From a virus, in the IMG/VR virus record IMGVR_UViG_3300017917_002291, positions 1 to 20,012 of that record: a stretch of 20,012 bases of DNA; one strand, written 5' to 3'. Below are positions 368-16,993 of this stretch, piece after piece. A program made the position numbers and the translations under genes. Position 1 is the stretch's first letter. The number at the start of each line of letters is the position of its first letter. The notes under the pieces were generated by a model. That model searched no databases and had not been told where the DNA came from. It saw only the letters and a program-made list of their open reading frames with translations.

Positions 368-703
368 TTATGATAAAATTAAAGGTGCCGCAATAATGCG
401 TAAACCGTCCGTGCCGTAGGTTTGAATTTGATTATTGCCAGAATATGTTACCGCAGCAGTATAATCGCCCGGACACTGGTTGGTATCTTGTGAAGACAAA
501 GGAATAGTTATACTTCCATTAACGTTATTTGCGTCACCTGTGACACCAATGTTAAAAATTGCTGAACCAGTTTCACCGTAAGTTTTCAGCGCAGTATAAT
601 ATATTTGGCATCCTGATAGATTCAAAGGATTGCCATTTTCGTCCGTAAACGATAAGTTAAAATTTATCGTATTTCCCTGATAGACCTGAACCAATGTTGA
701 CAT
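368..703 (-). CDS. BppU-type Ig-like domain protein (putative virion protein)
   Basis: A 111-residue protein with no signal peptide or membrane segment. The pattern near the N-terminus (VYQGNTINFNLSFTDENGNP), followed by LNLSGCQIYYTA, an SITIPLSSQDT strand and PGDYTAAVTY, matches what I know of the N-terminal Ig-like domain of phage baseplate upper proteins (BppU family): a gap-free beta sandwich built around FTD.NG.P..L.G and a PG.Y strand. It is too short to carry the C-terminal receptor-binding part of BppU, so it may be a stand-alone adaptor or head/neck decoration. The start lies 8 bases after a TTTTTAGTGTATT element and has no Shine-Dalgarno site. It is followed after one base by the next gene. 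Family call moderate; role inferred. Confidence 0.7.
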   Translation of the reverse strand: MSTLVQVYQGNTINFNLSFTDENGNPLNLSGCQIYYTALKTYGETGSAIFNIGVTGDANNVNGSITIPLSSQDTNQCPGDYTAAVTYSGNNQIQTYGTDGLRIIAAPLILS

Positions 704-710
704 GATAATT

Positions 711-723
711 AATACACTAAAAA
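711..723 (-). promoter_or_regulatory. Recurrent late-promoter-like element, site 1 (variant)
   Basis: On the minus strand this reads TTTTTAGTGTATT, one base different from the TTTTTGGTGTAT found at other gene starts. It begins in the T-tract of the terminator hairpin 723-750 and ends 8 bases before the ATG at 703. Function is inferred from recurrence and position. Confidence 0.45.
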
Positions 724-750
724 GCCCCTTTGAATTTTTTCTCCGGGGCT
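716..750 (-). terminator. Intrinsic terminator after the small membrane protein gene
   Basis: Read on the minus strand, AGCCCC (750-745) pairs with GGGGCT (728-723) around a 16-base loop and is followed at once by TTTTTAG. The stop codon of the 70-residue membrane protein gene lies 14 bases upstream. On the plus strand the same stem is followed by ATTTCAAT and then a long T run, so it might work in both directions, but no plus-strand gene needs it. Confidence 0.65.
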
Positions 751-763
751 ATTTCAATTTTTT

Positions 764-976
764 TTAATTATGTAGCCAGAACAAAAATCTTGTTAACGCT
801 GGACGTAAATATTGTTTTACTTTTGCGTATACAAAATTTGCAACTGTATGAGGTAATACTAAAATATGGAATAAAATCTTTTTCCAAGTTTTTACGTAAT
901 ACGTATCAACACCATTTTCTACCCCAATAACCAATGCTACAGAAAACCAAAGAAATAAAAGAAAAATATTTAACAT
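764..976 (-). CDS. Small membrane protein, unrecognised
   Basis: This is a 70-residue protein with one clear hydrophobic segment at residues 3-20 (NIFLLFLWFSVALVIGV) and a weaker hydrophobic stretch near 32-48, followed by a basic, aromatic C-terminal half. It starts 3 bases after the stop of the 128-residue gene, and a good Shine-Dalgarno site (GGGAGAA) sits about 9 bases before the ATG, overlapping the end of that gene. A terminator follows. It could be a holin-like or other inner-membrane protein, or could have no role in lysis; no endolysin is visible nearby. A shorter plus-strand frame across the same bases lacks a ribosome binding site and context. Function unknown. Confidence 0.6.
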   Translation of the reverse strand: MLNIFLLFLWFSVALVIGVENGVDTYYVKTWKKILFHILVLPHTVANFVYAKVKQYLRPALTRFLFWLHN

Positions 977-979
977 AAA

Positions 980-1366
980 TTACAATTCTCCCGCTTGAAA
1001 CTTCTTCATAAAGTTTGCCATTTCAGGGTCACTATCAGCACGTGTCGGTAATTTTAAAGCACGATTTGGTAACTGACGCATTTTTGCTTCCAAAAACTTT
1101 TTTTCTAAAGAAGTAATTAGTTTATCACGAGCATCTAACGGAACAATACCAACACGATGCGAATGCTCATGTAGGTCTGTTACAGTCATTGCCTGTAGCT
1201 TTGCACGATACTGGTCAATATTATCGACGTTATCGTAACCGTCATTAATACCAAACAATTTAATCATGTTTACGGATGGTCGCGATTCGAGAGCGCCATG
1301 AACTTGTTTTTGTGTGGCGTCTAAAACTTTTGTTTTAGCAGCCTTGTCTTTTTTTGCCTTTGCCAT
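980..1366 (-). CDS. Unrecognised 128-residue basic phage protein
   Basis: The N-terminus is very lysine- and alanine-rich (MAKAKKDKAAKTKV, residues 1-14), suggesting a flexible nucleic-acid- or protein-binding tail. The remainder looks helical and contains an LHEHSHRVGIVPLDARDKL segment near residues 64-82. The start has a clear Shine-Dalgarno region (AAAGGAAAAGG) about 7-16 bases upstream. A TTTTTGGTGTATA element lies 38 bases before the ATG, itself just after the terminator that ends the head operon. In many phages the gene after the capsid gene encodes a head-completion or neck protein; the HEHSHRVGI..LDARDKL pattern is reminiscent of small phage proteins of this kind, but I cannot name a family. 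Confidence 0.75.
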   Translation of the reverse strand: MAKAKKDKAAKTKVLDATQKQVHGALESRPSVNMIKLFGINDGYDNVDNIDQYRAKLQAMTVTDLHEHSHRVGIVPLDARDKLITSLEKKFLEAKMRQLPNRALKLPTRADSDPEMANFMKKFQAGEL

Positions 1367-1403
1367 AAAAATCCTTTTCCTTTAAGTAGATTTAGTGATA
1401 CTG

Positions 1404-1416
1404 TATACACCAAAAA
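1404..1416 (-). promoter_or_regulatory. Recurrent late-promoter-like element, site 2
   Basis: Minus strand TTTTTGGTGTATA, preceded 10 bases upstream by TAAAATA. It lies between the capsid terminator (1452-1482) and the start of the 128-residue gene (ATG at 1366), where a new promoter would be expected. It is a full match to the consensus built from the six sites in this window. Function is inferred. Confidence 0.55.
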
Positions 1417-1451
1417 GTATGTATTTTAGAAAAAAAAGATTTATATACTAA

Positions 1452-1482
1452 ATAAAAAACCCGAGTTTTTAGCTCGGGTTTT
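1452..1482 (-). terminator. Strong intrinsic terminator after the major capsid protein gene
   Basis: On the minus strand AAAACCCGAG (1482-1473) and CTCGGGTTTT (1465-1456) form a perfect 10-base-pair stem with a 7-base loop, followed by further T residues (TTTTTTAT across the 3' arm and beyond). It begins 21 bases after the capsid stop codon at 1504. This is the best terminator in the window and marks the end of the head operon. Confidence 0.9.
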
Positions 1483-1503
1483 GAAGATTTTAATCTAGTT
1501 AGA

Positions 1504-2673: not shown

Positions 2674-2709
2674 GTTAAAAGTCCTTATTTAAATTTATAT
2701 TTTCTAATA

Positions 2710-3324
2710 TTAGACAGCGATTTCGATTTGGGCAAAGCCACCGAGAACGCCTGCGCCATTGTAGGTGCCGGTATCAGAGATACAACGACCGACAACTTGG
2801 TTCATGACACCAGTGGTGACGAACGAAGGAGCAACGCAAGCAAAACCACCGTTAGAGCCGGAAGCAACAAGCGGCCAACCTGCAACTGGCTTGGTGCCAT
2901 TGAATTGCGAAAGGGCGACTGTTAACTGACCACGCTTCAGAATCGGAACAGCTTGACCGGTTTGAACGAAACCACGAGCCTCAGTGTGTGAGTATGGCAT
3001 GTTCAATAGACGGTTACCGTTTTCATCGAACATAGCGGTAGTAGCAAGTGTGATACCTGCAACTTCCCACTTCGAATCACCGACCGTAGCCGGGCGAACG
3101 CGACGGCTGACGCTGAAGAGAGGGCTATAAATGTTGGTATAAGAAGCACCGACTTGCTGGGTGCCATAAGCCTCAGAAGAAACAGGGTCTTGAGAGCCAG
3201 TGATGAAAGTCACAAGCTGACCACCGAGACCGGTTTGATTCAAGGCGAAGAAGTTCAAAACTTCGTGCTGGTCGAAATCACGATTAGGCAGAAGATTTGT
3301 AGAGGAGATGAATACGTTAGGCAT
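2710..3324 (-). CDS. Small head protein, putative capsid decoration/stabilising protein
   Basis: A 204-residue protein rich in Gly, Thr, Val and Ser and predicted by eye to be mostly beta, with repeated short strand-like segments (GLGGQLVTFITGSQDPV, VAGWPLVASGS) and a C-terminal VLGGFAQIEIAV strand. It lacks charged coiled-coil character and signal peptide. It sits between the protease/scaffold and the capsid genes, the usual place for decoration proteins such as lambda D, and it shares the G/C-rich codon use of the capsid gene, suggesting similarly high expression. Similarity to DUF2190-like or capsid-cement proteins is possible but not established. The start at 3324 has no Shine-Dalgarno; a TTTTTGTGTAT element lies 27 bases upstream. 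The 36-base gap to the capsid gene has no such element. Confidence 0.65.
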   Translation of the reverse strand: MPNVFISSTNLLPNRDFDQHEVLNFFALNQTGLGGQLVTFITGSQDPVSSEAYGTQQVGASYTNIYSPLFSVSRRVRPATVGDSKWEVAGITLATTAMFDENGNRLLNMPYSHTEARGFVQTGQAVPILKRGQLTVALSQFNGTKPVAGWPLVASGSNGGFACVAPSFVTTGVMNQVVGRCISDTGTYNGAGVLGGFAQIEIAV

Positions 3325-3351
3325 AATATTTAGTTAACGAGTTGATTGTTG

Positions 3352-3374
3352 ATACACAAAAATTTACAATTTTT
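3352..3374 (-). promoter_or_regulatory. Recurrent late-promoter-like element, site 3 (variant)
   Basis: Minus strand TTTTTGTGTAT at 3362-3352, one G shorter than the consensus TTTTTGGTGTAT, 27 bases before the ATG at 3324. It overlaps the 3' arm of a small AT hairpin (AAAAATT, GTA, AATTTTT at 3374-3358). The whole 76-base gap downstream of the protease/scaffold gene is otherwise plain AT-rich sequence. Weaker than the other sites. Confidence 0.4.
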
Positions 3375-3400
3375 TATAATAGAAATGATTTTTTTTAAAA

Positions 3401-5050
3401 TTATTCTAATTTTTGACCGGCAAAGGAAGTGCCAGCTAAAGCTTTCTTAGCAAGAGTCTTTAAGTCAGAAGATTCTGGCTTAATGATACTACCAGCAGGA
3501 GCGGAGGTTTGATTTTCCAGAGCGGAAGCAATAACTTCCTCAATATCTAAACCAGCGTCAGTAACTTTTGCCTTAACACCCTTTTCAGTTAATTTTGCAA
3601 GAAGCGCGTCTTGAGCAGCCTTGGCTTCGTCAGCCATCTTTTTCTTGTGCTCCTTGGTTTTTTCCTTCATCAGCTTCTTGGATTTATCCATCCATTTAGC
3701 AAATGCTTCGTCATTTAGATTACGAATATCATTGACGATTTCAGATTTTTCTTCATCAGAAAATTCGAAAGTAGCATCAATAGCAGTCATACGCTCGTTG
3801 AAAGCTTGTTCAGCAGCAGCAGCAGCTTGTGCCTGTTTAATAGTTTCTAACTCTGCCTTAACAACAGCGAGGTCTTCAGTTAATTTCTGAGCAGCAGCTT
3901 GTGCTTGCTGTTTGGCCTCTTCAATTTTGGCAGTGTGTGCTTCGGTTTCTTTGCGAAGTTGTTCTTGTCGTTCGCTTTCTGCAACAATAGCGTCAATAAT
4001 AACGGTTGCACTAGCAACGACTTCGTTTAATTCTTCGATTTTAGTTGCCTGTGCGGCACGCTCTTTAAGAGCTTTAATATCTTCGGATTTCATATCAGAT
4101 AAAGTAGATGATGTAAAAGACGATACACATTTTTTTTGTGTTTTTATTGTTTTATTTAATTTTTCTTCTGAACTAATAACAAAAGCACAAATTCTGCTAC
4201 GAGCTTCTTCAAATATAGAATCAATCTGTTTTTGTTCTTCTAGCTGTTCTTGCTCAGGAGTTTCTATTTCATTCTCTTCTTCAGTTTCAGATTTAGATTC
4301 TGTAATAACAGTTAAACCTTTGACTGCCGCAGCGGGAACAGTAACAACACCGCCGCCTAATGGTATAACGCCTTCATCAATAATACGATAAACGCGTAAA
4401 TCTTTGTTATCCGGGTGTAAGCCTGAACCATTATAACTTCTCAATGAGGCATTTATACGTCCGAAATCACTGTCAGATTCTTTGTAAACATAGGTAGCCT
4501 TATCAATTTCTTTTTCGTCACGGGGCAACGCTACAATACGGTAATCATCAAAACCCATTTCAAATGACAAAGAAAGAGAATCAAAATCAGGATGTGCGGG
4601 AGAAGAAGCTTGTAATATATAATCACATAAATCTTTATTAACAACTCTCCATAAAGCAATGACTACTGCAATATTAAACGGCTTAGCAGATTCTCTAGCT
4701 TCTTGCTCTGTAATTACGCGGTCTGTTCCAAATTCGGTCAAGCCAACATCTACAATATAACCTACAACTGACTTACGGTCGTGTTCAAAATTAATTTGTT
4801 GACGTTTAAACTTTTTATAAACTGCTAAACTAGTTTCTCTATCAATACCGTCGTCATTTAGATTAACTAATCCCGCGACAGCTAAATTTCCTGCTACAAA
4901 TAATATAGCTGGCTCGTCTTCTGGATTAATATTTGCTGGTAACAAATCTCTTAATTGGACAAGAGATGCACGAACCTCGTTCTGAGCTTCCTCAGTTGGG
5001 TCTATCGCCTTAATGCGGCCAGCAAAAACTACATTATATTTAGTATCCAT
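3401..5050 (-). CDS. Prohead serine protease fused to coiled-coil scaffold
   Basis: 549 residues in two parts. Residues about 1-230 resemble the herpes/HK97-type prohead protease fold: an N-terminal AGRIKAID strand, the histidine motif INFEHDRKSVVGYI (His90) and the serine motif DSLSLSFEMGFDDY (probable Ser162 or Ser160), matching the H...S.E pattern of phage maturation proteases. Residues about 255-300 are a Glu/Gln-rich linker, and about 320-500 is a long Ala/Glu/Lys/Gln coiled coil typical of scaffolding proteins. In the cell it would fill the prohead, template capsid assembly and then cleave head proteins and itself. It lies between portal and capsid genes, as expected. No obvious internal start with a ribosome binding site for a separate scaffold was found. 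An 8-A run at 4130-4137 sits between the two parts. No Shine-Dalgarno precedes the start; a GGTGTAT element does. Confidence 0.8.
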   Translation of the reverse strand: MDTKYNVVFAGRIKAIDPTEEAQNEVRASLVQLRDLLPANINPEDEPAILFVAGNLAVAGLVNLNDDGIDRETSLAVYKKFKRQQINFEHDRKSVVGYIVDVGLTEFGTDRVITEQEARESAKPFNIAVVIALWRVVNKDLCDYILQASSPAHPDFDSLSLSFEMGFDDYRIVALPRDEKEIDKATYVYKESDSDFGRINASLRSYNGSGLHPDNKDLRVYRIIDEGVIPLGGGVVTVPAAAVKGLTVITESKSETEEENEIETPEQEQLEEQKQIDSIFEEARSRICAFVISSEEKLNKTIKTQKKCVSSFTSSTLSDMKSEDIKALKERAAQATKIEELNEVVASATVIIDAIVAESERQEQLRKETEAHTAKIEEAKQQAQAAAQKLTEDLAVVKAELETIKQAQAAAAAEQAFNERMTAIDATFEFSDEEKSEIVNDIRNLNDEAFAKWMDKSKKLMKEKTKEHKKKMADEAKAAQDALLAKLTEKGVKAKVTDAGLDIEEVIASALENQTSAPAGSIIKPESSDLKTLAKKALAGTSFAGQKLE

Positions 5051-5066
5051 ACTACTGGATAACCAG

Positions 5067-5078
5067 ATACACCAATTT
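5067..5078 (-). promoter_or_regulatory. Recurrent late-promoter-like element, site 4
   Basis: Minus strand AAATTGGTGTAT, 16 bases before the ATG at 5050 and preceded by TAAAATACTATA. It fills most of the 36-base gap between the portal stop and the protease/scaffold start. A tiny CTGG-TTAT-CCAG stem lies between the element and the ATG. Function is inferred. Confidence 0.5.
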
Positions 5079-5086
5079 ATAGTATT

Positions 5087-7027
5087 TTATTCAGTTGCTT
5101 TTAAAATTGCAACTGCTTTCCAACCATCAACTTGGAATTCTGAGGCAATTTCGGCAATTTTTAAATTAATTTCCTGAGGAATATTTTTAGCCTCAGTAAA
5201 ATATGTTTTAATAGATTCGTGCCATTTATCTTGAGGCTCATTTACAACAATAGCTTTAACAGCCGCAGTTACAAATGTTTCTTGTGCGCTATTTAAATCC
5301 TTAAGCTTGTATTGTTTTTTATAAGCTTTCTTAAAACTTTCTTCTAAATCGGTAATAGCAAATACAGCGTCAGACAATTTTTGAGGGTCAATACTTGCAC
5401 GAGTGCCAATCTTTCCAGTCTTTTTAGCAGGGCTCTTTGTGCCACCGCTACCAGCTGGGCGACCTTGTTCATCTGCGCCTTGGGCTTCAGGAGCCAAAGG
5501 AGTATAAAGACCGTCATCACGTTCTTTTTTGTAAGCTTTTTGATTTTCAAGAGAAGCTTCTTTGTCTGGTAGCATACCGGTCTTAAGAGCTTGATTCAAT
5601 TCAGCATCAGTCAATAAACCGAGTTGTGCCATTTGCAAGAATACGCGTTGCAATGCGGTTTGGTCTTCAACATTGATTTCTTCAAATTCAATAGTAGGAA
5701 CATTCTTAAAACCTAAAGCCTGACAAATTTTCTTAATTTCTGGACGTAAGAAATTGTCCAAGAATACTCTACGACCTTCACGCAAACCTTCAATAAATAA
5801 TTTTGCCTTAATAGAAGCATTAGCAAATTTGTCTTCTCCGAAAAATTGATAGCCAAGACCATCACGAATATCTTTGTCTACCTGTTCATATTTACCTTTG
5901 CCAAGCAATTCTTTTAAGTCTGGAATTTTCCATTCTGCTTTGGTATTATGGTCGGTGACAAGGACACGACCAATTGTTTGAGTCTGGAACATTTGTTGCA
6001 AACGTTCCAAAGCCTTTGGATTTGTGCCGGGATTATATTGGTCACGCTGACTACCCGAAGAAACATGAAGAAACACCTGCTCCATTGTTTGCACAAGGCT
6101 CATATCCATCTTTTCCAACATCAATTTATATTCTAAACGATTAATTAACGGGAAAATCATTGGAACGGCCAACGGTTCGTAGTCCTGCTTGCGATAGAAA
6201 CAATAATAGAGACGAGAAGTATCTAAAGGTGCGTAAATCCAAGGAGTTGCAGAATATTGCTTGATTTGTTTTTGAATATCTGGCGGAAAGTCCTTTAGCA
6301 TTTGTCGGTCTTCCGGAGTCTGAGGATTACGCAAACGTTCAATTTCAAAAGTGGACAACATACGAACATATGTTTGATTATAAGTTGGGCCAACTTGTAA
6401 ATAAACTTGTTTAGGGTCTAAAATAATATAACGAATTGGTAATTCCGGAGATTTTGCCGCAGCAAATGCAGTTTTCATCTTCGCAAATTTTTCAGGCTCA
6501 ATCTTGCCATTAAATTTGTAAATAAAGATATTACCGGAACGATAATACTCTAAAAACCATTGGGCCATTAGGTCACTTAAATTAATTGCTTCAAACCAAC
6601 GAGTAAAGAATGCTTTGACCGTCTTATTTGATGTGCGAACATGTAGTGGCGAAATAGAAAAATCTTGAAGAAGATTAATTGTATTACGAACTAACGGAAT
6701 ATTAAAATAAGCCAATGTAGCTAAATTAATAGGAACCGACATGGTATAATAACCACCTTCGGCAGAAAATGGCATAATACCAGCACTTAAATTTGGATAA
6801 AGATTGTTATTAACAATAACATCGCTCCAACTATTACGCATTACAGTGCCGCTACCAACACCGCCGCAAGCGGCTACAACGGTTTTTTCTCCTGCCCAAT
6901 CCATAACATTGGCATCAAGTTGCTGCGCCGAATTAACGACCTGAACTAATGGCTCAGAAAAAGAATTATTTCCGGCGTTTTTGCGATTTTCCCAATAAGG
7001 AGACTGTTTGTTGTATTTACGAGCCAT
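5087..7027 (-). CDS. Portal protein
   Basis: 646 residues. The central region (about 100-490) has portal-like features: a stretch beginning TINLLQDFSISPLHVRTSNK, a helical segment AFFTRWFEAINLSDLMAQW, YYRSGNIFIYK, a long helix-rich part with ..LDNFLRPEIKKICQALGF.., and EFEEINVEDQTALQRVFLQM followed by a turn and a QMAQLGLLTDAELNQAL helix, the pattern commonly seen in the stem/wing/crown of phage portals. It would form the dodecameric DNA entry ring to which the terminase docks. It is longer than T4 gp20 or lambda B: a Gly/Pro/Lys linker (about 505-545) leads to an extra helical C-terminal domain of about 100 residues. It follows the terminase gene directly and precedes protease/scaffold. The start has no Shine-Dalgarno and lies 10 bases after a TTTTGGTGTAT element. 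Confidence 0.85.
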   Translation of the reverse strand: MARKYNKQSPYWENRKNAGNNSFSEPLVQVVNSAQQLDANVMDWAGEKTVVAACGGVGSGTVMRNSWSDVIVNNNLYPNLSAGIMPFSAEGGYYTMSVPINLATLAYFNIPLVRNTINLLQDFSISPLHVRTSNKTVKAFFTRWFEAINLSDLMAQWFLEYYRSGNIFIYKFNGKIEPEKFAKMKTAFAAAKSPELPIRYIILDPKQVYLQVGPTYNQTYVRMLSTFEIERLRNPQTPEDRQMLKDFPPDIQKQIKQYSATPWIYAPLDTSRLYYCFYRKQDYEPLAVPMIFPLINRLEYKLMLEKMDMSLVQTMEQVFLHVSSGSQRDQYNPGTNPKALERLQQMFQTQTIGRVLVTDHNTKAEWKIPDLKELLGKGKYEQVDKDIRDGLGYQFFGEDKFANASIKAKLFIEGLREGRRVFLDNFLRPEIKKICQALGFKNVPTIEFEEINVEDQTALQRVFLQMAQLGLLTDAELNQALKTGMLPDKEASLENQKAYKKERDDGLYTPLAPEAQGADEQGRPAGSGGTKSPAKKTGKIGTRASIDPQKLSDAVFAITDLEESFKKAYKKQYKLKDLNSAQETFVTAAVKAIVVNEPQDKWHESIKTYFTEAKNIPQEINLKIAEIASEFQVDGWKAVAILKATE

Positions 7028-7036
7028 GACACATGG

Positions 7037-7048
7037 AATACACCAAAA
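7037..7048 (-). promoter_or_regulatory. Recurrent late-promoter-like element, site 5
   Basis: Minus strand TTTTGGTGTATT, ending 9-10 bases before the portal ATG at 7027. The TTTT is at the same time the 3' end of the hairpin stem 7045-7078, so the terminator-like structure and the element are fused. Function is inferred. Confidence 0.55.
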
Positions 7049-7078
7049 GTGACTTTATTTTACTTTAAAGTCACTTTT
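7045..7078 (-). terminator. Perfect 13-base-pair hairpin between terminase and portal genes
   Basis: AAAAGTGACTTTA (7045-7057) and TAAAGTCACTTTT (7066-7078) are exact inverse complements with an 8-base loop. Read on the minus strand, the stem starts inside the terminase stop codon (7077-7079) and ends in TTTT, followed by GGTGTAT. The T-tract is short and is part of the stem, so termination may be partial. The structure could equally be an RNA-processing or mRNA-stability element separating the terminase and head operons. Confidence 0.6.
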
Positions 7079-9095
7079 ATTTTCTCTGTAATGCCCATCC
7101 AGCATAGCTACCAGCATCTTCTTCTTGAGGTCTTTCTTGAGACTCAAGATAAAGTTTTAAGGCCCAATTTCCCAAAAATAATGCGGAATAAGAGTCGCGA
7201 CGAATACGCATTTTACTCTTACTTTGTTTTTTCATGTGACTAGGCAGGTCGAAGGTTGTAGTGCCCAACGAGCTAACCTTGACCTCAATTAAGGCGCATT
7301 CTTTTTTAACTAAGTCTAACAGAACGTCTTGTTGACCAATAAAATCATCAATATCACCTGCAATCCCATTTTCGGCAAAATCCGGATGGTTTTCCAGTAT
7401 ATATCTAACACTATCACTCTGATTACGCATCTTAGTCATAGCACTTTCACTTGGTAAACCTTTTGCGGCAAAGAGCAACATACGACGATTAAAACAGGTT
7501 TGCATATATTCGTTGGCAGCTTTTTGAAATGTTGAATGAAAATATTGCTTTTGAACAATAGCCCCATCAGTCTTATTATAACCTCTTTGTATATCTGATA
7601 CCAAATCATCAAAGTTTTCTTTACCAAAGTCCGCAAATTCTATAGCTTTTAAATTACGTTTAGCCTGTTTAAATTGTAAAGACTCATTACAAAAGTTAAT
7701 AAAATCCATGTTTGAACCTTGAGAAGTATCCACTGCAACATAGACGACATTAAAATTATTTAAAATGTATAAGAAATATGCAATATGATGTTCAGGTTTA
7801 GCACCAGCATTGGCATATTGGTGAACAACAAGCCCAACTTTTCTTACCGAATCATCAGAAAACTTTTTATTTACAATCTTAATGACGCACATAGCAAAAT
7901 GGTCATTTGTTTCTGAACCACCCAAGTTAGGGTCAATAGATACAATATATTCAGCACCCTTTTCCCCAACAATTTCAACTGTTGGGTCACTTGGGCCTTT
8001 TAATGTGCATTCTTCCATGACTTTGGCGCGAAAATATCCGTCAGAGTCTTGAACAAATTGCGCTTCATATTCACGTTTAATAACGGTTTCTGAATACATT
8101 CCTGATTCAATTTCTTCGCGCACGGCGGCATCAACACGGTCAGGAGGAGCAACCTTGTAAGATAATTGGTGAATCAAATAAGATGAAGGAATGTCGTCGC
8201 CTTCGATGACTTCCGCCTTAGCCTCTTTATCTTTATCTAAAAACGCCTTGTCTTTTTCATCTAATTTATTAATCATCTTATCATCTTGCGAATAGATGAT
8301 TTTTAAATACTTTTTATAGATTGAGAATAAGTCTTGCCAAGTATAGGAAGCGGACGAAATAATAATCATCTTAACATCAGATGCAAATTTAGTGCGTTCG
8401 CTTTCTTTCATTTTTCCGCGACGAATTAAACGACTTTCTCTTTCGCGAATAGTTTGACGACGAGTAGTTTCTTCTTCCGAAGGAGTGACTAAGAACGGCT
8501 TTAAAACGGTGTCGATAATGGTTTGAGAGACAAGCAATCCTTCGTCAATACCTAGAACAGAGCAACGATAACCACGAAGTTTTTCAGCATCACCTAACGG
8601 TAATGCGATAATAGATGCTCCGTTTTTAAAGTTAATTTCATAAAGGTCGGGTTTTTTACCAACAACTGCTCCGCTGCCAGTTTTCTTAATGCATTGTTTT
8701 AACAAAAAGCCACGTTTAGAGTTGGCCCATTTCTCAATATTTTCAATGATTTTACGACTCGAACGAAATGTTGGAGCAATCATAACAATACGTTTACCGG
8801 GATTAAATAAACAATATATGTAACAAAAATGAGAAAACAACCAAGATTTAGAATAACCACGACCAGCAACCGTCAAAGTAAAATTTTTGTTTAGCCAACC
8901 TTTAATTAGTAAACGCTGGTCAGGATATAACTTTAATCCAGTAAGCCAGAAAACTAGCATACCAACATTATACATAACAAAACGTCCAAACGTTTTGCGG
9001 GCAGTTTCTTCCGGCAGTTCACCTTTTAGTAGCTCTAATTCTGCATTAACGTCTACCTGCGGTTTAATGTTTTTGTTACCTTCTACCCAAGCCAT
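7077..9095 (-). CDS. Terminase large subunit (packaging ATPase/nuclease)
   Basis: 672 residues with the two expected domains. ATPase: Walker A-like AGRGYSKS (77-84, with Ser at the position where Gly is usual, a variant common among phage terminases), Walker B VLGIDE (180-185, Asp184 and Glu185), and a coupling motif SSAS (247-250). Nuclease, RNase H-like: YIVSIDPN (Asp388), VAVDTSQG (Asp456) and a C-terminal acidic cluster GDIDDF (580-585). It would dock on the portal, pump DNA into the prohead and cut the concatemer. The start overlaps the stop of the nuclease gene as TAATG and has a strong Shine-Dalgarno (AAAGGAG, 7 bases away). An inserted charged region at about 205-300 separates ATPase motifs from the linker. 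Identification is from motifs and gene order. Confidence 0.92.
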   Translation of the reverse strand: MAWVEGNKNIKPQVDVNAELELLKGELPEETARKTFGRFVMYNVGMLVFWLTGLKLYPDQRLLIKGWLNKNFTLTVAGRGYSKSWLFSHFCYIYCLFNPGKRIVMIAPTFRSSRKIIENIEKWANSKRGFLLKQCIKKTGSGAVVGKKPDLYEINFKNGASIIALPLGDAEKLRGYRCSVLGIDEGLLVSQTIIDTVLKPFLVTPSEEETTRRQTIRERESRLIRRGKMKESERTKFASDVKMIIISSASYTWQDLFSIYKKYLKIIYSQDDKMINKLDEKDKAFLDKDKEAKAEVIEGDDIPSSYLIHQLSYKVAPPDRVDAAVREEIESGMYSETVIKREYEAQFVQDSDGYFRAKVMEECTLKGPSDPTVEIVGEKGAEYIVSIDPNLGGSETNDHFAMCVIKIVNKKFSDDSVRKVGLVVHQYANAGAKPEHHIAYFLYILNNFNVVYVAVDTSQGSNMDFINFCNESLQFKQAKRNLKAIEFADFGKENFDDLVSDIQRGYNKTDGAIVQKQYFHSTFQKAANEYMQTCFNRRMLLFAAKGLPSESAMTKMRNQSDSVRYILENHPDFAENGIAGDIDDFIGQQDVLLDLVKKECALIEVKVSSLGTTTFDLPSHMKKQSKSKMRIRRDSYSALFLGNWALKLYLESQERPQEEDAGSYAGWALQRK

Positions 9096-10045
9096 TATAA
9101 TGCTCCTTTCTCAGTAGCATACTCTAGGTCAATTCTTTTAACCTGTTCACCCATTTGAAATATACGTAATAATTTACGACTAGCGTCGGCGCGACCGTTG
9201 GCAAATACAATTTGAAAGTTAAGTGGATATTTAACAAGTAAATCACGCATATTCTTAAAAATATGCGAAGGAGAAGCCTTACCATGTCGCATCCAAGGTA
9301 ATTCATTAAAACTTAAAGCATCATCAATAGATGATTCAACAATCATAATTATGTAACTATTAGACTCGACGGCACGAGCTAATTCTCTGTCAATACGTTC
9401 ATAAGAACTATCTTCGCTTTTCTTTTTTCTTTCAATTTTACGTGATGATAAGGAGCCGACAAAATCATTCAAAGATTTGCGTTCAATATAAATATTCTGA
9501 TTAAATGGTTCAGCTAATCCATAATCACCAACATCTAATTTTTTAATTTCAGTATTAAGTGAAAATTTTAAAGGAGTTTGTTCACGTGTGTCCTGAATCA
9601 AAGTAGCCTTTTCTAAATCACGTGTAAATACAGGCTGCTCATCATAAAAACGAGCTTCAAATCCAAGGTCACTGGTAATATTGTAATATCCACCCATTCT
9701 GTCAAAATAAGACATAGATGGACAGCACAAGGAACGTAATTCGGCTTGGGTCGGAGCGAAACGTAAGTTTTTGGAAACTTTACGTTCTTTAAGCCAATTA
9801 ATAGCCCACTTTAAACCTTCTTCCTTATTCTTTAGAACCCATTTTCTCATGTTTTCTTTGTTGACAAAATCAGTGGAAAGATATTGTTCGGCAGTTTTAA
9901 ATGGGATATCTTCACCAGTTAGCAAATCTTTGCGACGAAGATAGGTCAAATAATAAGTCTCACGCTTCATATGACTTTTAATATAGTCATGCAAAGCGTC
10001 TAAATTTTCATGCTCAGTATTGTCTATATGGCAAATTACACTCAT
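9095..10045 (-). CDS. ERCC4/XPF-family nuclease domain protein
   Basis: 316 residues. The C-terminal part (about 145-290) carries the complete ERCC4 nuclease signature: LIQDTREQTPL (Asp152), DVGDYGL (Asp174) and IYIERKSLNDFVGSL (Glu188, Arg189, Lys190, Asp194), equivalent to the GD...ERK...D metal site. This family cuts branched DNA or flaps. The N-terminal part (about 1-110: ICHID...LHDYIKSHM, YYLTYLRRKDLLTGEDIPF, STDFVNKENMRKWV) resembles a domain I associate with phage nucleases that often begin with a C..C...H zinc finger, here apparently degenerate with metal ligands missing. ATGA overlap with the gene before and TAATG overlap with terminase tie its expression to packaging. A role in trimming branches from replicating DNA before packaging is plausible but inferred; recombination or repair is the alternative. 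Confidence 0.85.
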   Translation of the reverse strand: MSVICHIDNTEHENLDALHDYIKSHMKRETYYLTYLRRKDLLTGEDIPFKTAEQYLSTDFVNKENMRKWVLKNKEEGLKWAINWLKERKVSKNLRFAPTQAELRSLCCPSMSYFDRMGGYYNITSDLGFEARFYDEQPVFTRDLEKATLIQDTREQTPLKFSLNTEIKKLDVGDYGLAEPFNQNIYIERKSLNDFVGSLSSRKIERKKKSEDSSYERIDRELARAVESNSYIIMIVESSIDDALSFNELPWMRHGKASPSHIFKNMRDLLVKYPLNFQIVFANGRADASRKLLRIFQMGEQVKRIDLEYATEKGAL

Positions 10046-11385
10046 TGTTGTCCCATCATTGCCTCGTTTTTGGTCATACCGGCGATTAACGCGTATGAAT
10101 CCTCAAGAGAAGAAATACGTTCCATTTCAGCCGCGTCTTCCATATGTTCCCTTTTAGCCAGCGCAATCAGCTCTCCACGAGTCTTTTCTTGAACCCACAA
10201 GTTGATTAAGTTAACCAGCGCGTCATTTTGATTAGCTTTATTATCTAATCTGTCCTTACGCGAACCGGCAACGCTTTCAATTAAGCCTTTTAAGCGACCT
10301 TTGCTCTTGTCCAACTTTTCGCGCAATGAATTAACAGATTCAACCAAAGACATAGACAATTTAGCCTTCTCATTATCTTCCGAATCAAGACATTCATCAA
10401 TTTTACGCTCCTGTTTTATTACAGAACGTTCAATTTGAGAAACGGAAACTGTTTCAGATGCGACAGAAATATACATATCTACTTCTTCTGGCGTTAAATC
10501 GCCAGCTTTGTCTTGCACCTGACGAACAAAAGTCGATTCAAATAAATCGCGGTCGGCTTTTTTGTCATATTGACTAGCTTGTAATATGAATTTAGTCGAT
10601 TGCATGTAGCTCAATAACGCTTTAATATTTTTTTCCTGCGAGGGACGCATATTGGCAGGGTCATATAAAGCTTTTGACGGTTCTACCGGGTTACTTACAT
10701 ACCGATTTACTAAACCAATTGCAGCAGCATAGTTTTTTGGAGCCTTGTAACGTTTATTATCTACCGGTTCGTCCCAAATATCTATCGCATCTTCATTTGA
10801 TTCCTTGATAAAACGCGCAATGGCCAAATATTCTTGAGCCAAAGGCATGAAAGTCATATCAGGGAAAAGAAGTTTAAAAATCTCTTTTGGCGGCGTAGGA
10901 TTTTCACTATTAATCATCGCCAAAATTGAATTTTTTTGGTGTTCGTTGAGCACATACGGTCCCTTTTTGACCTTATCAGCAGTTGTTTTTACTTTAACTG
11001 GCTCACCATTTTTAGAAAGACTGCTAATGAATAGTCTTACACTTTTACCTTCGGTATGATGACCATTCAAATCGGGATTATTGAATGTTTTTTGGGTCAA
11101 AGTCTTTAAATCCATTTTTTCAAAGTTATCTTTGACAAATTGTTTTTGTTCTTCGGTCAATTCGATAGTTTGATAATTAGCATTCGAATAATTTCCCTGT
11201 CTTTTTGTCTTTTCTTCTGGTTTATTATCTTTACCAGAAGCCGTGGCAATAAATTCTAAAGCTTCTTCTTTAGTTTCAAAAGATTGTTTGTCTTCAAACT
11301 CAGGATTTGAAGGAAAAATAATAGTAACAATCCATTTACCGTCTATTTCAGTTGGTTCAGAAAATTTTGCCCATTCTTGACTCAT
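10042..11385 (-). CDS. Unrecognised 447-residue protein in the terminase operon
   Basis: I do not recognise the family. The first about 60 residues look like a small alpha/beta unit (WIVTIIFPSNPEF, then ETKEEALEFIAT). A Lys/Asn-rich linker (54-70) follows, then several helical segments. One (about 74-125, TIELTEEQKQFVKDNFEKMD followed by KTLTQKTFNNPDL) looks like a helix-turn-helix-type fold. Residues about 325-395 form a charged coiled coil. The C-terminus is helical and Met-rich. It overlaps the sigma-like gene by ATGA and the nuclease gene by ATGA; its start has a GAAGAAGG ribosome site. No separate terminase small subunit is visible, and a DNA-binding-plus-coiled-coil protein just upstream of the large subunit could fill that role. 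This is a guess from position only. Confidence 0.8.
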   Translation of the reverse strand: MSQEWAKFSEPTEIDGKWIVTIIFPSNPEFEDKQSFETKEEALEFIATASGKDNKPEEKTKRQGNYSNANYQTIELTEEQKQFVKDNFEKMDLKTLTQKTFNNPDLNGHHTEGKSVRLFISSLSKNGEPVKVKTTADKVKKGPYVLNEHQKNSILAMINSENPTPPKEIFKLLFPDMTFMPLAQEYLAIARFIKESNEDAIDIWDEPVDNKRYKAPKNYAAAIGLVNRYVSNPVEPSKALYDPANMRPSQEKNIKALLSYMQSTKFILQASQYDKKADRDLFESTFVRQVQDKAGDLTPEEVDMYISVASETVSVSQIERSVIKQERKIDECLDSEDNEKAKLSMSLVESVNSLREKLDKSKGRLKGLIESVAGSRKDRLDNKANQNDALVNLINLWVQEKTRGELIALAKREHMEDAAEMERISSLEDSYALIAGMTKNEAMMGQQ

Positions 11386-12092
11386 ATTAAACCTTCTTCA
11401 GAAATAATTTCTTTTGCAATTTGTTTAAATTTAATTGTAGCGGCTCTAATTTGTAAATATCCGTGAACATCACTATTAGATTGTTTTTTATAACCCATAA
11501 TTTTGCCCACTTCTTCAGGATTTTTGTGCTCAATAAATAACAAACGATAAATTTTGGCCTCATCTTTAGACAAATGTTCCATAATTTTCTCGTCAATTAC
11601 GACCTTTGCTTTATCTATATCTAAAAAGTCAGATTGAATATTATGAGATTCGTCAATATGATTTTCAATGGAAAGAGGGGTAGAAATAGCAAATTTTGCC
11701 TGCTTTTTCTTTTCCCATTTTGCATAAAATTGACAAGAAGCGTCTTGCATTCCACTACCAGAGCCATTTTTTTCTGTCCAAGCGCATCGCCCACATCCTA
11801 AATTATAGGAACAAGGGGCTCCATAAGCATTAGCAGCATTACAAGGCTTTGCAACACGATAAAGATTATCGCGAAGAAGATTATGTATCGTATTTGTAAT
11901 TAATTTATTAACCCAACGGTCTAAAGGCTTAGAACTGTCGTATGAATCAAAATTAGCCCAAATACGTTCAATAATTGTAGCGGAAACGTCTTCCCATGCG
12001 ATTGTCGTAAGACGCCAAGTAGTTTTACGACGTTCAACTAGACGCTCTATTTCCTTGTAATTAGTCTTAAATAAGGCTTCTTTGTTGTCCAT
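11382..12092 (-). CDS. Phage RNA polymerase sigma-70-like factor with cysteine cluster
   Basis: 236 residues. Residues 31-80 resemble sigma region 2 (AWEDVSATIIERIWANFDSY, then KPLDRWVNKLITNTIHNLLR), including the acidic/aromatic helix that contacts polymerase and the helix that reads the -10 element. Residues 172-226 resemble region 4 (LSKDEAKIYRLLFIEHKNPE, EVGKIMGYKKQ..), a helix-turn-helix. Between them lies a segment with Cys84, Cys94, Cys100, Cys103 and Cys120 (AKPCN, GAPC, LGCGRCAW, DASCQFYAKWEKKK) that could bind zinc. I know a family of phage sigma-like proteins with such a Cys/WEKKK insert, which supports the call. It would redirect host RNA polymerase to phage promoters, probably late ones. 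It follows the zinc-ribbon gene by a TAATG overlap and is coupled by ATGA to the next gene. Confidence 0.8.
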   Translation of the reverse strand: MDNKEALFKTNYKEIERLVERRKTTWRLTTIAWEDVSATIIERIWANFDSYDSSKPLDRWVNKLITNTIHNLLRDNLYRVAKPCNAANAYGAPCSYNLGCGRCAWTEKNGSGSGMQDASCQFYAKWEKKKQAKFAISTPLSIENHIDESHNIQSDFLDIDKAKVVIDEKIMEHLSKDEAKIYRLLFIEHKNPEEVGKIMGYKKQSNSDVHGYLQIRAATIKFKQIAKEIISEEGLI

Positions 12093-12553: not shown

Positions 12554-12571
12554 ATCCTTGTTCCTTATTTA

Positions 12572-12600
12572 ATAATAACATTAAACCTTGGTATTGTCAA
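12572..12600 (-). promoter_or_regulatory. Host-type sigma-70 promoter candidate for the regulator operon
   Basis: Minus strand TTGACA (12600-12595), exactly 17 bases, then TATTAT (12577-12572): a perfect -35 and a 5/6 match -10 at optimal spacing. It overlaps the last codons of the lipoprotein gene, and transcription would begin near 12565, about 12 bases before the zinc-ribbon ATG, just including the ribosome binding site. The exact fit argues for function; AT-rich DNA produces chance TATTAT often, but a perfect TTGACA at 17 bases directly before an operon is less likely by chance. Confidence 0.55.
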
Positions 12601-13675
12601 CTTTATCAGTTTCAGAAGTAGCTTTTGGATTAATTAAACCAGATTTAGCCAATTCTTCCATTTGAGCCTTACCCCAAAATGAATTACGGTCTCCTAAACG
12701 ATATTTTAAATGTTCGGAAGCCTTTTCCCAAGCGTCATTTTTAATAATTTCGGCTTCATCTCTAAGGTCTTGCCAAGCAGCCGTAACTTTAGTATGTAGT
12801 GTTTTAATTTTCCATGCTCTATAAAGTCCATAACCTATACAGACAAAAACAATTAATAAAACTCCTCCGGTTGCATAATAAAACCACGGTTGATGTGTTA
12901 GCCAATCCAAGAATATACTAACTAGGCCAATAATTACACCAGCTAATATTAAACCACCACCTTCAAGAACCATTTTAAGAACAGCTAATAAAAGTGCGCC
13001 AATAACAATTAAACTAATACCAGCGATACGGGCTCCATTGGTCCACCAAGACTTTTCCTTCTCTTCGTATTTTTGTATTAAGTCTTTAATTTCCTTGTCT
13101 TTTTGGTTAATTTTATTTTGCAAATTAATCTTAGCATTTTCCTGTTCTTTTTCAGATTCAATTTTAAGTTTAGCAATTTCAGCATCACGTTTTGTTATTT
13201 CTTCATCACGTTTTGCAATTATATCTTCTTTTTCTTTTATCTGTTTACGAACAAGGCTAATCTCATTTAAAACCTCACTATATTTTTGACGAGCCTCGTC
13301 TCTTTGTCCCGTTATAATCAGCATAACACGTTCTAAAGCGCGAACTGTTTCAGCCGGGTCATCGTTCGGTAATCTTTTTTGAGCTACTTCTCCTTCTGCC
13401 TGTATAGCTTCTTTTGGTAATGCGGGCTCAACATATTCATTGGCTTTTAAAATACCTTTAATTGACGACGCTGCTTTTGCCGCCTCTAATTGCTGTTGCT
13501 CATTCAGGTTTTTTAAATCTTTAACTTGATTATTAAGAGTTAAAATTTGATTGTCTTTTGAAGCTAGTAATTCAGTAGTTTTGTTTCCTTGAGGAGCAAC
13601 CAATGTATTTGCAGTTTCACAACCAGTTAAAAATAAAAAAGAAGATAAAAATAAAATTTTAAATATATTAAACAT
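12581..13675 (-). CDS. Lipoprotein with long coiled coil and three membrane segments
   Basis: 364 residues. N-terminal lipoprotein signal: basic start, hydrophobic core, lipobox LTGC with Cys19 as the lipid site and Glu20 after it (not Asp, so outer-membrane sorting is likely if the host is Gram-negative). Residues about 33-72 and 110-208 are charged heptad-like coiled coil. Three hydrophobic segments follow at about 216-236, 239-259 and 264-286, then a soluble tail of about 75 residues. One protein would thus be anchored in the outer membrane at its N-terminus and the inner membrane near its C-terminus, a topology like a unimolecular spanin but much larger and with several membrane passes. 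A superinfection-exclusion or envelope-anchoring role is an alternative. The start overlaps the tailspike gene by 8 bases and lacks a Shine-Dalgarno. Confidence 0.75.
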   Translation of the reverse strand: MFNIFKILFLSSFLFLTGCETANTLVAPQGNKTTELLASKDNQILTLNNQVKDLKNLNEQQQLEAAKAASSIKGILKANEYVEPALPKEAIQAEGEVAQKRLPNDDPAETVRALERVMLIITGQRDEARQKYSEVLNEISLVRKQIKEKEDIIAKRDEEITKRDAEIAKLKIESEKEQENAKINLQNKINQKDKEIKDLIQKYEEKEKSWWTNGARIAGISLIVIGALLLAVLKMVLEGGGLILAGVIIGLVSIFLDWLTHQPWFYYATGGVLLIVFVCIGYGLYRAWKIKTLHTKVTAAWQDLRDEAEIIKNDAWEKASEHLKYRLGDRNSFWGKAQMEELAKSGLINPKATSETDKVDNTKV

Positions 13676-16600
13676 TGTAATAAGGAATTTTAAAGTTAGA
13701 GCCAGTGATGTTTATGGTGATAAAGCCAACCGGATTTGCGGGTAGTGTTGCTCCACCAGCGACAGCGGTTGTTGCTGTAGAGATACCGGCCAAACCAACA
13801 GTTCCACTTACATGTAAATTATATGCAGGAGCCGCGACGTTGATACCTAGTCGATTATTAGCATTATCTACGGTAACAGATTCTTTCCATCCTGTTCCGT
13901 TATTAAAATCAATACCACCAATAGAAGTTTTTTGACCGGAAGCAGAGAAAATTTGTAAATTACCCGGATTAACACCCATGCCATAATAAATTTTGGAAGA
14001 AGGGTCATCGTAAACCAACACACCTTTGGTAACCAAATTAGATGTTCCTAATGAAATTGCTGCCGATGGGCTAGCGGTTCCAAAACCAAGACTACCTGTA
14101 ATAGAAACGACTCTTGAGTTAGTATCTATATTTACAAACTCTGATTGTCCTGTGCCGTTAGAACTACTAATGCAGCCAAAACTAAATCTTCCACCAGAAC
14201 CGGCGAACAATCTAAAGTTCGCATTAGCAATGCCCATACCATAGAAAGTATTAGTTGCTGCATCATCATATAAGCCTAATAATTTTGTTGTAGTCGTTTT
14301 TCCTAATGACAAAGAAAATGTAGGAGATGCATATTTTATGCCTAGATTTCCCCATAAGCTTAAATTAGAACCAGAACGACTAATATCATTGTAGATATAT
14401 TGAGTAGAATCAGATAAAAATAATTCACGTGGAATTGCGCGATAAGATGCGTCAGAAGGGGATTTAAATAAACATTGTAATCCATCGCCACCCACTGATT
14501 CATAATAACGAGCACGGAAAGTGTGATATCCCGAATTCAGGTAAATGGTATTTTGCGTGCCGCCCGGTCCAACACCTGTTCCATGTGCGCCATACCAATA
14601 AGCAGCCATTTTACCATCAACAAACATATCGCCACCGTTATCAGCGTTAACACCGAAGCTGTAAACTCCGTTGCCAGTGGCCCAAAAATATCCGTTGAAT
14701 TCCATTGCATAATTATCTTGCCCTAATGAATAACCATCTATGTTAGGTGTCCATCCACCACTTGTAAATGTAACTCCTGTTTTTAGAAAACTGTTTAAAT
14801 CATCCGTCGAATTAATTGACGGTGTTGTTCCAATGCTTGTATAGGCAGTAAAAGACAAACCGCTCTTAAGATACGATGATGTATCAACATTTTGATGGTC
14901 ATAAACAAACGGAGAATATAAAGCGCCCCAAAAATCAAATGTGCCAGAAGTCGGTGAATAAATACCAACGTTGCAGCTTGAGCCGACCGTAATACCATTA
15001 GAGAATTTATACGCTTTTTCAGCATTGGATGCAACTGCATTGTTTAAGTTTAAAATTGCATTATTTAAAGTATTAGTTGGTTCTGTATATGTAGCAAAAG
15101 GAGCTGATAACGCATTGGCTAAACTATATTTAAAATAAAATAATTGTCCAGAAGCACTTGATGCAATTGGTGAAATTTTTAACCAAATACTATTACGTGT
15201 TGTTTCTTCATTGGAAATTGTTTTTATAGTTTGAATATATGTTGGGGTAGCGACTGTAGCAGGGGGAGAAGCATAAAGAGTATGAGCACTAAAAAATCCA
15301 GTATAAGGATTCATTGTGGCCCAAAATTCATAACCATTATATTGATTATCGGCCTGATTAAAATAATTCGCTGCGTTAATTCTTACATTATTTTGTGTTC
15401 CTACCCCACCGCTCCAAACACATAACCAAATACCATTACCAGTAATACCACTATTAGGAATTGGCCAAGTAGTAGAACCATAATATGTAAAACCATTTAA
15501 TATGTCTGTGCTTTTATATGGCGATGTAGAATCAGAAGCGTCAATAATTGTATTGTATGCGGCTCCACCAGAGGGACCAAAATTATTTCTAAAAGTATAA
15601 TTAGAAGGAGTAAAACTGCCATAACAAAAATTGTCATAACCTCCCGAACAAGTGGTGTCGGTAAAATTATTTTCAATACAAAAATTTGTCAATTTATAAT
15701 TATTTACATCATTATACCAATAAATTGATTGGTCGGTTGTAACACCTTGAAATTTATTATTTGAAAAATGATAACCAGAACAGTTTTTTACAGTCATATC
15801 AATTTGAATATGATATGCTGTTCTATTTGTGCCTGTCGAAATAAATAAATTATCAGTCAAAGAAGTTTGGGAAGCTCCTTGATAAAATAAATTAACAAAA
15901 TTATCTTGAAATACGTTATTAGCAATAACTGTGTTATCAACAGATTGAACATTTATTCCATAATTTTCAGAACCTTTAATAATATTGTTACTAACAATAA
16001 TATTGTTATTTGTTGTATTAGAGATAGAAAAAGCGGAATTTGTAATACGGGTCATACTTTCACCACTATAACCATCACAAACGTTGCCGACAAATGAACA
16101 ATCTCTACAAGCAGTTGCGGCTTCAAAACCTAAATAATCAACACCTTTTACTAAATTCCCTATTACTGATGCATTTGTCTGATTATCTAATGATATACCC
16201 CATTGACTATTACTTACGGTATTTCCTACGACAATATTATTTCTACCTCTTGTCCAAAGTTCAATAGCAATTTGTGTTTTAGCGTTAATAGAATTATTAC
16301 TAATAATATGATTACTTGAAAAACCGGTAGATGATGGGTCAGCTTGTAATTTTATTGCTGCTGATTCCGCAAGAAAAGTGTTATAACTTGTTTCATTAAA
16401 TAAATTTGCATCAATTAAAAAATTATTGCTACTTTGATTAATAGAATTGTTTACATAACTATAAATAGCGCAAAAATATCCAGTAAAATAATTATTATTT
16501 ATGTTGACAAATTGAGTTCCGTCTCCCAAATATATAGAGCTATTTCGTGGATTATAAAATTTTGAATTTTGAATTGTAATATTACTTGCTCTAATTGTAT

Positions 16601-16955
16601 TAATAAATCCATTTTGATTAGAAACACCAGCGGCCATATTACCGTTGCTATCAAAAGTCAAATTATTAAAAGTAATATTTGAAGCTCCCGAAATGTTAAT
16701 TTTTTTATCATTTTCGGCTGTAGCGGCCAATAAAATGGAACCCTCTTCACCAAAAAAGTTTAAATTATTACCTGTAATATCTACTACACCCGACCAATAA
16801 TATGTTCCTTTTGGAAAAAATAAAGTATTATTGCGCTGAGAATATAAAGAGTTAATTGCGCTTTGTAGTGCAGTTTTATTATCTGTTACACCATCTGGCT
16901 TTAAACCTAAATTTACTGCCGAAATAGCCGTGCCATTAAGAGAAGAATATGACAT
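13668..16955 (-). CDS. Tailspike/tail fibre with pectate-lyase-like beta-helix and PA14-like domain
   Basis: 1095 residues. Residues about 10-480 have the signature of a right-handed parallel beta-helix: an N-terminal NLGLKPDGVTDNKTALQSAI motif, typical of pectate-lyase-fold tailspikes, then many N-rich coils (NITIQNSKFYN, NIIVSNNIIKGS, NTVIANNVFQDN). Residues about 690-850 look like a PA14-type sugar-binding domain (NGYFWATGNGVYSFGVNADN, GGDMFVDGK, LNSGYHTFRARYYESVGGDG). About 860-1030 holds two related copies of a roughly 75-residue module (LGLYDDAATNTFYGMGIAN and LVYDDPSSKIYYGMGVNPG). The protein ends in LHVSG and NPVGFITINITGSNFKIPYY, a terminal strand pattern seen in tail fibres. It probably binds or degrades a surface glycan; no catalytic residues can be assigned by eye. 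The start has AAGG sites upstream and follows a TTTTTGGTGTAT element. Confidence 0.8.
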   Translation of the reverse strand: MSYSSLNGTAISAVNLGLKPDGVTDNKTALQSAINSLYSQRNNTLFFPKGTYYWSGVVDITGNNLNFFGEEGSILLAATAENDKKINISGASNITFNNLTFDSNGNMAAGVSNQNGFINTIRASNITIQNSKFYNPRNSSIYLGDGTQFVNINNNYFTGYFCAIYSYVNNSINQSSNNFLIDANLFNETSYNTFLAESAAIKLQADPSSTGFSSNHIISNNSINAKTQIAIELWTRGRNNIVVGNTVSNSQWGISLDNQTNASVIGNLVKGVDYLGFEAATACRDCSFVGNVCDGYSGESMTRITNSAFSISNTTNNNIIVSNNIIKGSENYGINVQSVDNTVIANNVFQDNFVNLFYQGASQTSLTDNLFISTGTNRTAYHIQIDMTVKNCSGYHFSNNKFQGVTTDQSIYWYNDVNNYKLTNFCIENNFTDTTCSGGYDNFCYGSFTPSNYTFRNNFGPSGGAAYNTIIDASDSTSPYKSTDILNGFTYYGSTTWPIPNSGITGNGIWLCVWSGGVGTQNNVRINAANYFNQADNQYNGYEFWATMNPYTGFFSAHTLYASPPATVATPTYIQTIKTISNEETTRNSIWLKISPIASSASGQLFYFKYSLANALSAPFATYTEPTNTLNNAILNLNNAVASNAEKAYKFSNGITVGSSCNVGIYSPTSGTFDFWGALYSPFVYDHQNVDTSSYLKSGLSFTAYTSIGTTPSINSTDDLNSFLKTGVTFTSGGWTPNIDGYSLGQDNYAMEFNGYFWATGNGVYSFGVNADNGGDMFVDGKMAAYWYGAHGTGVGPGGTQNTIYLNSGYHTFRARYYESVGGDGLQCLFKSPSDASYRAIPRELFLSDSTQYIYNDISRSGSNLSLWGNLGIKYASPTFSLSLGKTTTTKLLGLYDDAATNTFYGMGIANANFRLFAGSGGRFSFGCISSSNGTGQSEFVNIDTNSRVVSITGSLGFGTASPSAAISLGTSNLVTKGVLVYDDPSSKIYYGMGVNPGNLQIFSASGQKTSIGGIDFNNGTGWKESVTVDNANNRLGINVAAPAYNLHVSGTVGLAGISTATTAVAGGATLPANPVGFITINITGSNFKIPYYNV
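13840..14345 (-). repeat. Two tandem C-terminal modules in the tailspike
   Basis: At protein level, LSLGKTTTTKLLGLYDDAAT.. through VDTNSR-like EFVNIDTNSRVVSITGSLGF and the following ISLGTSNLVTKGVLVYDDPS.. through ESVTVDNANNRLGIN align as two copies of about 75 residues with shared YDD, YGMG, F.SG, GTG and V.ID/VD.N.R positions. The DNA of the copies has diverged, so this is an old duplication. Confidence 0.6.
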
Positions 16956-16981
16956 ATTTTACCTTATACCTTATGCTAATA

Positions 16982-16993
16982 ATACACCAAAAA
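16982..16993 (-). promoter_or_regulatory. Recurrent late-promoter-like element, site 6
   Basis: Minus strand TTTTTGGTGTAT, beginning immediately after the TAA of the tail fibre gene (16994-16996) and ending 26 bases before the tailspike ATG at 16955. It is a full consensus match and is the only noticeable element in the 38-base gap. Function is inferred. Confidence 0.55.

Follow-up and report, generated by a model that had tools for sequence, protein, structure and literature searches.

The analysed stretch of DNA (the window) is the complete virus record IMGVR_UViG_3300017917_002291 of IMG/VR, with a length of 20,012 bases, a G+C content of 37% and a non-coding share of 2.4%; the minus strand is the coding strand. 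The gene order is conserved over 86 related loci, of which the shorter contigs span only a part: a small zinc-ribbon-like gene, a gene for a sigma-like protein (sigma-I), a gene for 360-450 amino acids (aa), an ERCC4 nuclease gene and the terminase large subunit gene (terL) are followed by the portal gene, a protease/scaffold-like gene, a 200-aa gene and a capsid-like gene. The subject of this study is a short element in the gaps before several of these genes, which an earlier note, made from the letters of the window, had proposed as TTTTTGGTGTAT and as a possible new phage late promoter. The features are collected in Table 1.

Table 1. Elements, promoter and genes of the window (ATG distances in bases, where given; SD, Shine-Dalgarno sequence)
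Feature	Position	Strand	Remarks
Element TTTTTAGTGTAT	712..723	-	Upstream of 368-703 gene; 14 from ATG; SD would not fit
Element TTTTTGGTGTAT	1405..1416	-	Upstream of 980-1366 gene; 44 from ATG; leader has AAAGGAAAAGGA
Element TTTTTGTGTAT	3352..3362	-	Upstream of 2710-3324 gene (co-directional with capsid-like gene); 33 from ATG
Element AAATTGGTGTAT	5067..5078	-	Upstream of 3401-5050 protease/scaffold-like gene; 22 from ATG
Element TTTTGGTGTAT	7038..7048	-	Upstream of portal gene; G 16 from ATG
Element TTTTTGGTGTAT	16982..16993	-	Upstream of 13668-16955 tail-like gene; G 32 from ATG; AAGG leader next
Sigma70-type promoter TTGACA-N17-TATTAT	12572..12600	-	Upstream of 12092-12553/sigma/10042/ERCC4/terL operon; AAGGA leader next
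Sigma-like protein sigma-I	11382..12092	-	Sigma70 region 2, four-cysteine insert, region-4-like C-terminus
ERCC4-type nuclease	9095..10045	-	Member of sigma-terL operon
Terminase large subunit (terL)	7077..9095	-	
Portal protein	5087..7027	-	Assigned by position; G002 orthologue weakly similar to portal of Bacillus phage Slash

The element in the window and in related loci

All six occurrences of TTNGTGTAT in the window were on the coding strand and fell in non-coding DNA; the opposite strand had none (binomial p about 2e-10, a value that is post hoc for the window; the core was replicated in independent relatives). All six elements were present at the places and on the strand given in the earlier note, with minus-strand GTGTAT cores at 712-717, 1405-1410, 3352-3357, 5067-5072, 7038-7043 and 16982-16987. 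As had been claimed, they end 8-38 bases before an ATG, and structural genes are preceded by an element in six of seven gaps; the exception is the capsid-like gene at 1504-2673. The further claim that no full match lies in a coding region held for the strict form only, because TTTTGGGTGTAT at 19444-19455, with one mismatch, is coding. Another GTGTAT was found at 4128. GTGTAW (W, A or T) stood 10-45 bases upstream of an ATG six times in the window, whereas permuted cores did so 0.3 times on average and at most once.

Two of the elements adjoin hairpins. The T-run of the 712 element is joined to a terminator-like hairpin (GCCCC..GGGGC), and that of the 7037 element also forms the tail of a second such hairpin downstream of terL. 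At both places (712-760 and 7037-7080) terminator and putative promoter appear fused, as the T-tract of the hairpin continues straight into the element.

Relatives were searched with the terminase large subunit (TerL) as the query. Among 50,697 phage records TerL matched with an identity of about 23-33% over a part of the protein, and the portal and sigma-like proteins of the window gave zero matches. In IMG/VR the first TerL relative showed 43% identity; afterwards, six relatives were found by portal and at least 461 by TerL, and 80 of the latter were retained. The clade set comprised 86 TerL/portal-related loci. When the k-mers of their coding-strand gaps were compared with those of coding DNA, without the motif of the window as bait, GTGTAAT, TAGTGTA, TGTGTAA and TTAGTGT ranked at the top, and GTGTAAT, TAGTGTA and similar k-mers were enriched more than 100-fold in the gaps. 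When the core was sought 10-60 bases upstream of 856 non-redundant gene starts, GTGTAW preceded 53% of the genes with gaps of 15-29 bases and 27% of those with gaps of at least 30 bases, but only 1-3% of the abutting or overlapping genes. Throughout the clade the motif stood at gene starts, oriented like the gene that follows it, and on both strands of the long relatives; in the two longest, G001 (136.5 kb) and G002 (174.5 kb), its G lies 14-18 bases from the ATG at most sites of either strand.

The conserved core of the family is GTGTA(A/T), whereas the T-run and the GG are local, TTTTTGG being a feature of the subclade of the window. Beyond the core, a weak A/T preference at -5/-4 and -1 was detected and nothing else. 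As regards the choice of the last base, all 11 of 11 sites in the window and in G007, its nearest relative, had GTGTAT, compared to 95 sites with A and 31 with T in the other records; TTTTTGGTGTAT is thus a local dialect of the broader GTGTAW. The upstream TAAAATA of the earlier note was confirmed at three sites of the window, but its enrichment in the clade was weak (8 versus 2.7 expected), and the search with offset-specific k-mers for a conserved -35 or other upstream partner, TAAAATA included, gave weak T-richness only. The top offset k-mers (TAGTCAAA at -22) look like residual orthologous copies of a single site. Neither the T4 late motif TATAAATA (8 sense versus 9 antisense) nor the TAnnTTTG motifs of Bacteroidota were enriched on the sense strand of the gaps.

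An exact search of IMG/VR with the bipartite pattern returned 62 stretches, of which only L033 (the contig of L005) encodes relatives of core proteins of the window; the remaining stretches look like chance, with the exception of a marginal 35-aa tail match in L047. A GTDB scan gave zero matches with an alignment as the query and one contig with a single protein as the query. This 77-kb contig (L180, NZWA01000041.1), which carries a TerL relative with 72% identity, was binned as part of a Flavobacteriales metagenome-assembled genome, but the host is not proven thereby, and the binning may be wrong, since the TTGAC/TATAAT promoters of these phages do not look Bacteroidota-like. A search for psbA was negative, and literature searches with the motif strings yielded nothing relevant. 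In the window, the large tail-like protein encoded at 13668-16955 contains a PA14 domain and beta-helix repeats.

Two putative promoter classes and the sigma-like proteins

GTGTAW was found upstream of genes for the tape measure, minor tail, virion-structural, tail-fibre-assembly-like and portal proteins. A second, sigma70-type class with the pattern TTGAC-N17-TAnnnT was present with 26 sense and 5 antisense sites, compared to 1.7 in shuffled sequences (spacers 15-19). If the spacer was varied from 8 to 27, 31 sites occurred at spacer 17 and 0-7 at every other spacer. This class precedes replication and metabolism genes, namely those for clamp-loader/RuvB-like proteins, rIIA, deoxynucleoside monophosphate (dNMP) kinase and UvdE. 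Its sites in G001 are concentrated at 98-123 kb, upstream of clamp-loader/RuvB-like, rIIA, UvdE-like endonuclease and endolysin-like genes, and the dNMP kinase gene at 10 kb is likewise preceded by one. A similar accumulation was observed at the ends of G004 and G005. In these clusters (G001 98,000-123,000, L165-L167, and the ends of G004 and G005) the -10 sits 10-15 bases from the ATG, from which leaderless early mRNAs are predicted. The sigma operon of the window possesses a promoter of this second class (Table 1); the sigma operon of the closest relative G007 (L115) follows an equivalent TTGACA-N17-TATTAT arrangement, and the TerL-linked sigma operon of G002 is preceded instead by GTGTATAAT.

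Counted from its first T, the sigma70-type -10 is 10-15 bases away from the ATG in 23 of 33 spacer-17 sites (median 15). Transcription starts twelve bases after this T in the textbook arrangement, so that the majority of these transcripts would have a leader of a few bases or none at all. For GTGTAW the median distance of the first G is 18 bases, which corresponds to a register shift of 3 and would place T(3) of the motif at -12 and GTG at -15 to -13. SD-like 4-mers between motif and ATG were found at 2 of 45 sites with a distance of 17-20 bases, compared to 19 of 40 sites at 25-45 bases (p 6e-6). This pattern is consistent with a promoter whose start lies about 13 bases downstream of the G, and not with an element acting in translation. 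Given how near both classes are to the ATG, the majority of mRNAs would be expected to have almost no leader.

Sigma-I comprises 236 aa, and its family was present in 49 loci, in the TerL operon adjoining the late genes. Pfam Sigma70_r2 matched 23 of 24 family members (best E 1.6e-9), and PHROG 1740, annotated as RNA polymerase sigma factor, matched 23. Sigma70_r4_2 matched three of the 24, and the C-terminal domain is helical in the AlphaFold model (mean pLDDT 78.5; linker of low confidence). Four invariant cysteines, which possibly bind zinc, lie between region 2 and the region-4-like part. Extracytoplasmic function (ECF) sigma factors are among the best fold matches. The long relatives G001 (L161-L167) and G002 (L152-L160) encode a set consisting of the TerL-linked protein of 226-241 aa, a primary-sigma-like protein of 273-277 aa (sigma-II) and a protein of 202 aa (sigma-III). 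In G001 the gene of sigma-III adjoins the dNMP kinase gene, and gp36 of phage phiEco32 is likewise encoded near a dNMP kinase gene. A multisubunit RNA polymerase (RNAP; beta subunit, PF00562) was not detected in eight long records of unknown completeness, whereas the controls were positive in 14 of 14 cases.

Assessment of the explanations

The recurrence at gene starts across the clade, the connection with virion genes, the near-absence at genes inside operons and the segregation, for the most part, from the sigma70-type promoters of replication and metabolism genes support the promoter function that was considered in the earlier note, and GTGTAW is very probably a late promoter. In the mechanism proposed here, GTGTA(A/T) would act as a single-element, -10-like late promoter in a clade of uncultured tailed phages, and host RNAP together with a phage sigma-like protein (most likely the one encoded at 11382-12092) would recognise it. 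Transcription would begin about 13 bases downstream of the first G, and most late mRNAs would start at the ATG or a few bases upstream of it. The sigma operon of the window would be transcribed from the host-type TTGACA-N17-TATTAT promoter, which would result in an early-to-late cascade. That a phage-encoded sigma reads the element can be assumed with good confidence, and that the protein encoded at 11382-12092 is this reader, with moderate confidence. Taken as a whole, a late promoter that is recognised by a phage sigma, most likely sigma-I, is considered the likely explanation.

A translation-initiation signal that replaces the SD sequence would account for the tight peak 14-20 bases from the ATG and for the genes there, which are without SD. 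However, the spacing to the ATG varies from 12 to 45 bases, and SD sequences are found chiefly at sites with the motif about 25 bases or more from the ATG, where an ordinary SD often stands between the two (19/40), which argues against such a signal. Moreover, very few operon-internal genes have the motif (1-3%), the sigma70-type promoters of the same genomes are equally close to the ATG, and the usual anti-SD tail of the 16S rRNA has no complementarity to the core, so that this explanation appears very improbable. Even less credible is an RNA-processing or terminator element whose T-run is merely a terminator tail. The hairpins at 712 and 7037 and a few sites in hairpin loops would fit it, but the structure around 137 sites was no stronger than in control gaps (mean fold z-score -0.38 versus -0.17; fraction below -2, 0.08 versus 0.07), GTGTA is conserved and the T-run is not, and the element is tied to the ATG downstream. 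A variant of a host promoter, for example a sigma70 extended -10 and not a phage-specific class, is suggested by the likeness of TGTAAT/TAWTWT to a -10 and by the position of GTG roughly at the TG of an extended -10. Host-type promoters of these phages, however, have the form TTGAC-N17-TAnnnT and precede a different gene class, and the GTGTAW sites are without a -35; this variant is therefore improbable.

The reader of a GTGTAW late promoter could also be sigma-II, sigma-III or host RNAP redirected by a phage activator, and the protein encoded at 11382-12092 would then have another function. The three sigma-like proteins in each of the two longest relatives and the position of GTGTATAAT before the TerL-linked sigma operon of G002 itself speak for this. 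On the other hand, sigma-I is the one present in 49 loci, in an operon adjoining late genes, and sigma-II and sigma-III were not seen in the shorter records, although those are fragments. A reader other than sigma-I is thus rather unlikely, and because of the three sigma-like proteins the assignment of GTGTAW to sigma-I is termed probable.

Several observations weigh against the proposed mechanism. The window sigma-I alone matched Pfam Sigma70_r2 with an E value of 0.0077, below the cut-off, and its fold matches had E values of 2e-3 or weaker with low whole-chain template modelling (TM) scores. G001 and G002 each encode two sigma-like proteins beyond sigma-I, and host factors may also play a part. 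The split between the classes is not absolute, as GTGTAW is also found upstream of non-virion genes (PhoH-like, phosphoesterase and sulfotransferase), and the promoter of an endolysin-like gene is of the sigma70 type. The matching divergence of motif and sigma (T in 11 of 11 cases versus 31 T and 95 A) could be due to common ancestry. Furthermore, the relatives are all incomplete or of unknown completeness, and the search for a single-subunit RNAP (PF00940), in which no positive control rang, found none.

If the mechanism applies, the element marks late genes in more than 80 contigs from a group without a close cultured relative among the 50,697 phage records, and late genes could be called from sequence alone. 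It is paired with a testable candidate sigma and suggests that leaderless mRNAs are the rule in these phages. More tentatively, these loci may represent a widespread, undescribed clade of uncultured phages whose programme runs largely on near-leaderless mRNAs, with sigma70 used early, a cysteine-insert phage sigma used late at a GTG-extended -10 without a -35, and up to three phage sigmas dividing the transcriptome. In this case, the start sites of the early sigma70 promoters would nearly coincide with the ATG.

Comparison with known phage systems

The late promoters of phage T4 (TATAAATA) consist of a -10 only and are read by the phage sigma gp55. The element described here would resemble them in both respects, but it differs in its sequence.

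Bacillus phage Slash is among the nearest cultured phages by TerL (identity about 23-26% over the aligned part) and has an annotated ECF sigma-24 (Slash_25); the sigma similarity is marginal. GTGTAW is not enriched in Slash, and its genes possess strong SD sites. Five sense-strand TGTATTAAT sites occur in its 45 kb (1.2 expected), one of them shortly upstream of the portal gene. The sites of Slash (L181) lie at 10221, 15428, 27240, 42486 and 44231, on the sense strand only and mostly shortly before genes. TGTATTAAT is a possible late promoter of Slash-like phages and may be a distant echo of GTGTAW.

In Salmonella phage 7-11, the phage sigma gp47 directs host RNAP to late promoters with the consensus GTAAtg-(16)-aCTA (PMC8948821). 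The sending of host RNAP to late genes by a phage sigma would be common to both systems, but the consensus of phage 7-11 is bipartite, and the searches in the present clade revealed no second conserved element.

The closest functional analogue is phiEco32, in which the small phage sigma gp36 (sigma-36) and host core RNAP read middle and late promoters of the form tAATGTAtA, with no -35 and a start 6-8 bases downstream (PMC8948821, PMC4281155). The earlier note had stated that the element matches no phage promoter that could be named; this was correct for the T4 late motif, but the TGTA core and the single-element form are those of the gp36 promoters. Both elements are single, lie on the sense strand before late genes and have no -35; early genes use sigma70 in both systems, and the start-site spacing, as judged from the indirect register, appears compatible. 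Gp36 and the sigma-I family both carry Sigma70_r2. The core is GTGTA(A/T) here and not AATGTATA, so that only TGTA is common with the consensus tAATGTAtA. Sigma-I, in contrast to gp36, has the cysteine insert and a region-4-like end, and no homology between the two was detectable (hhalign probability 0.2%, 14 columns); phiEco32 was also absent from the portal and terminase matches. Leaderless mRNAs, which are expected here from the short distance to the ATG, are a further difference. The element of this clade would thus work alike, while membership in the same family is not established, and it adds an independent phage promoter with a TGTA core for comparison with phiEco32.

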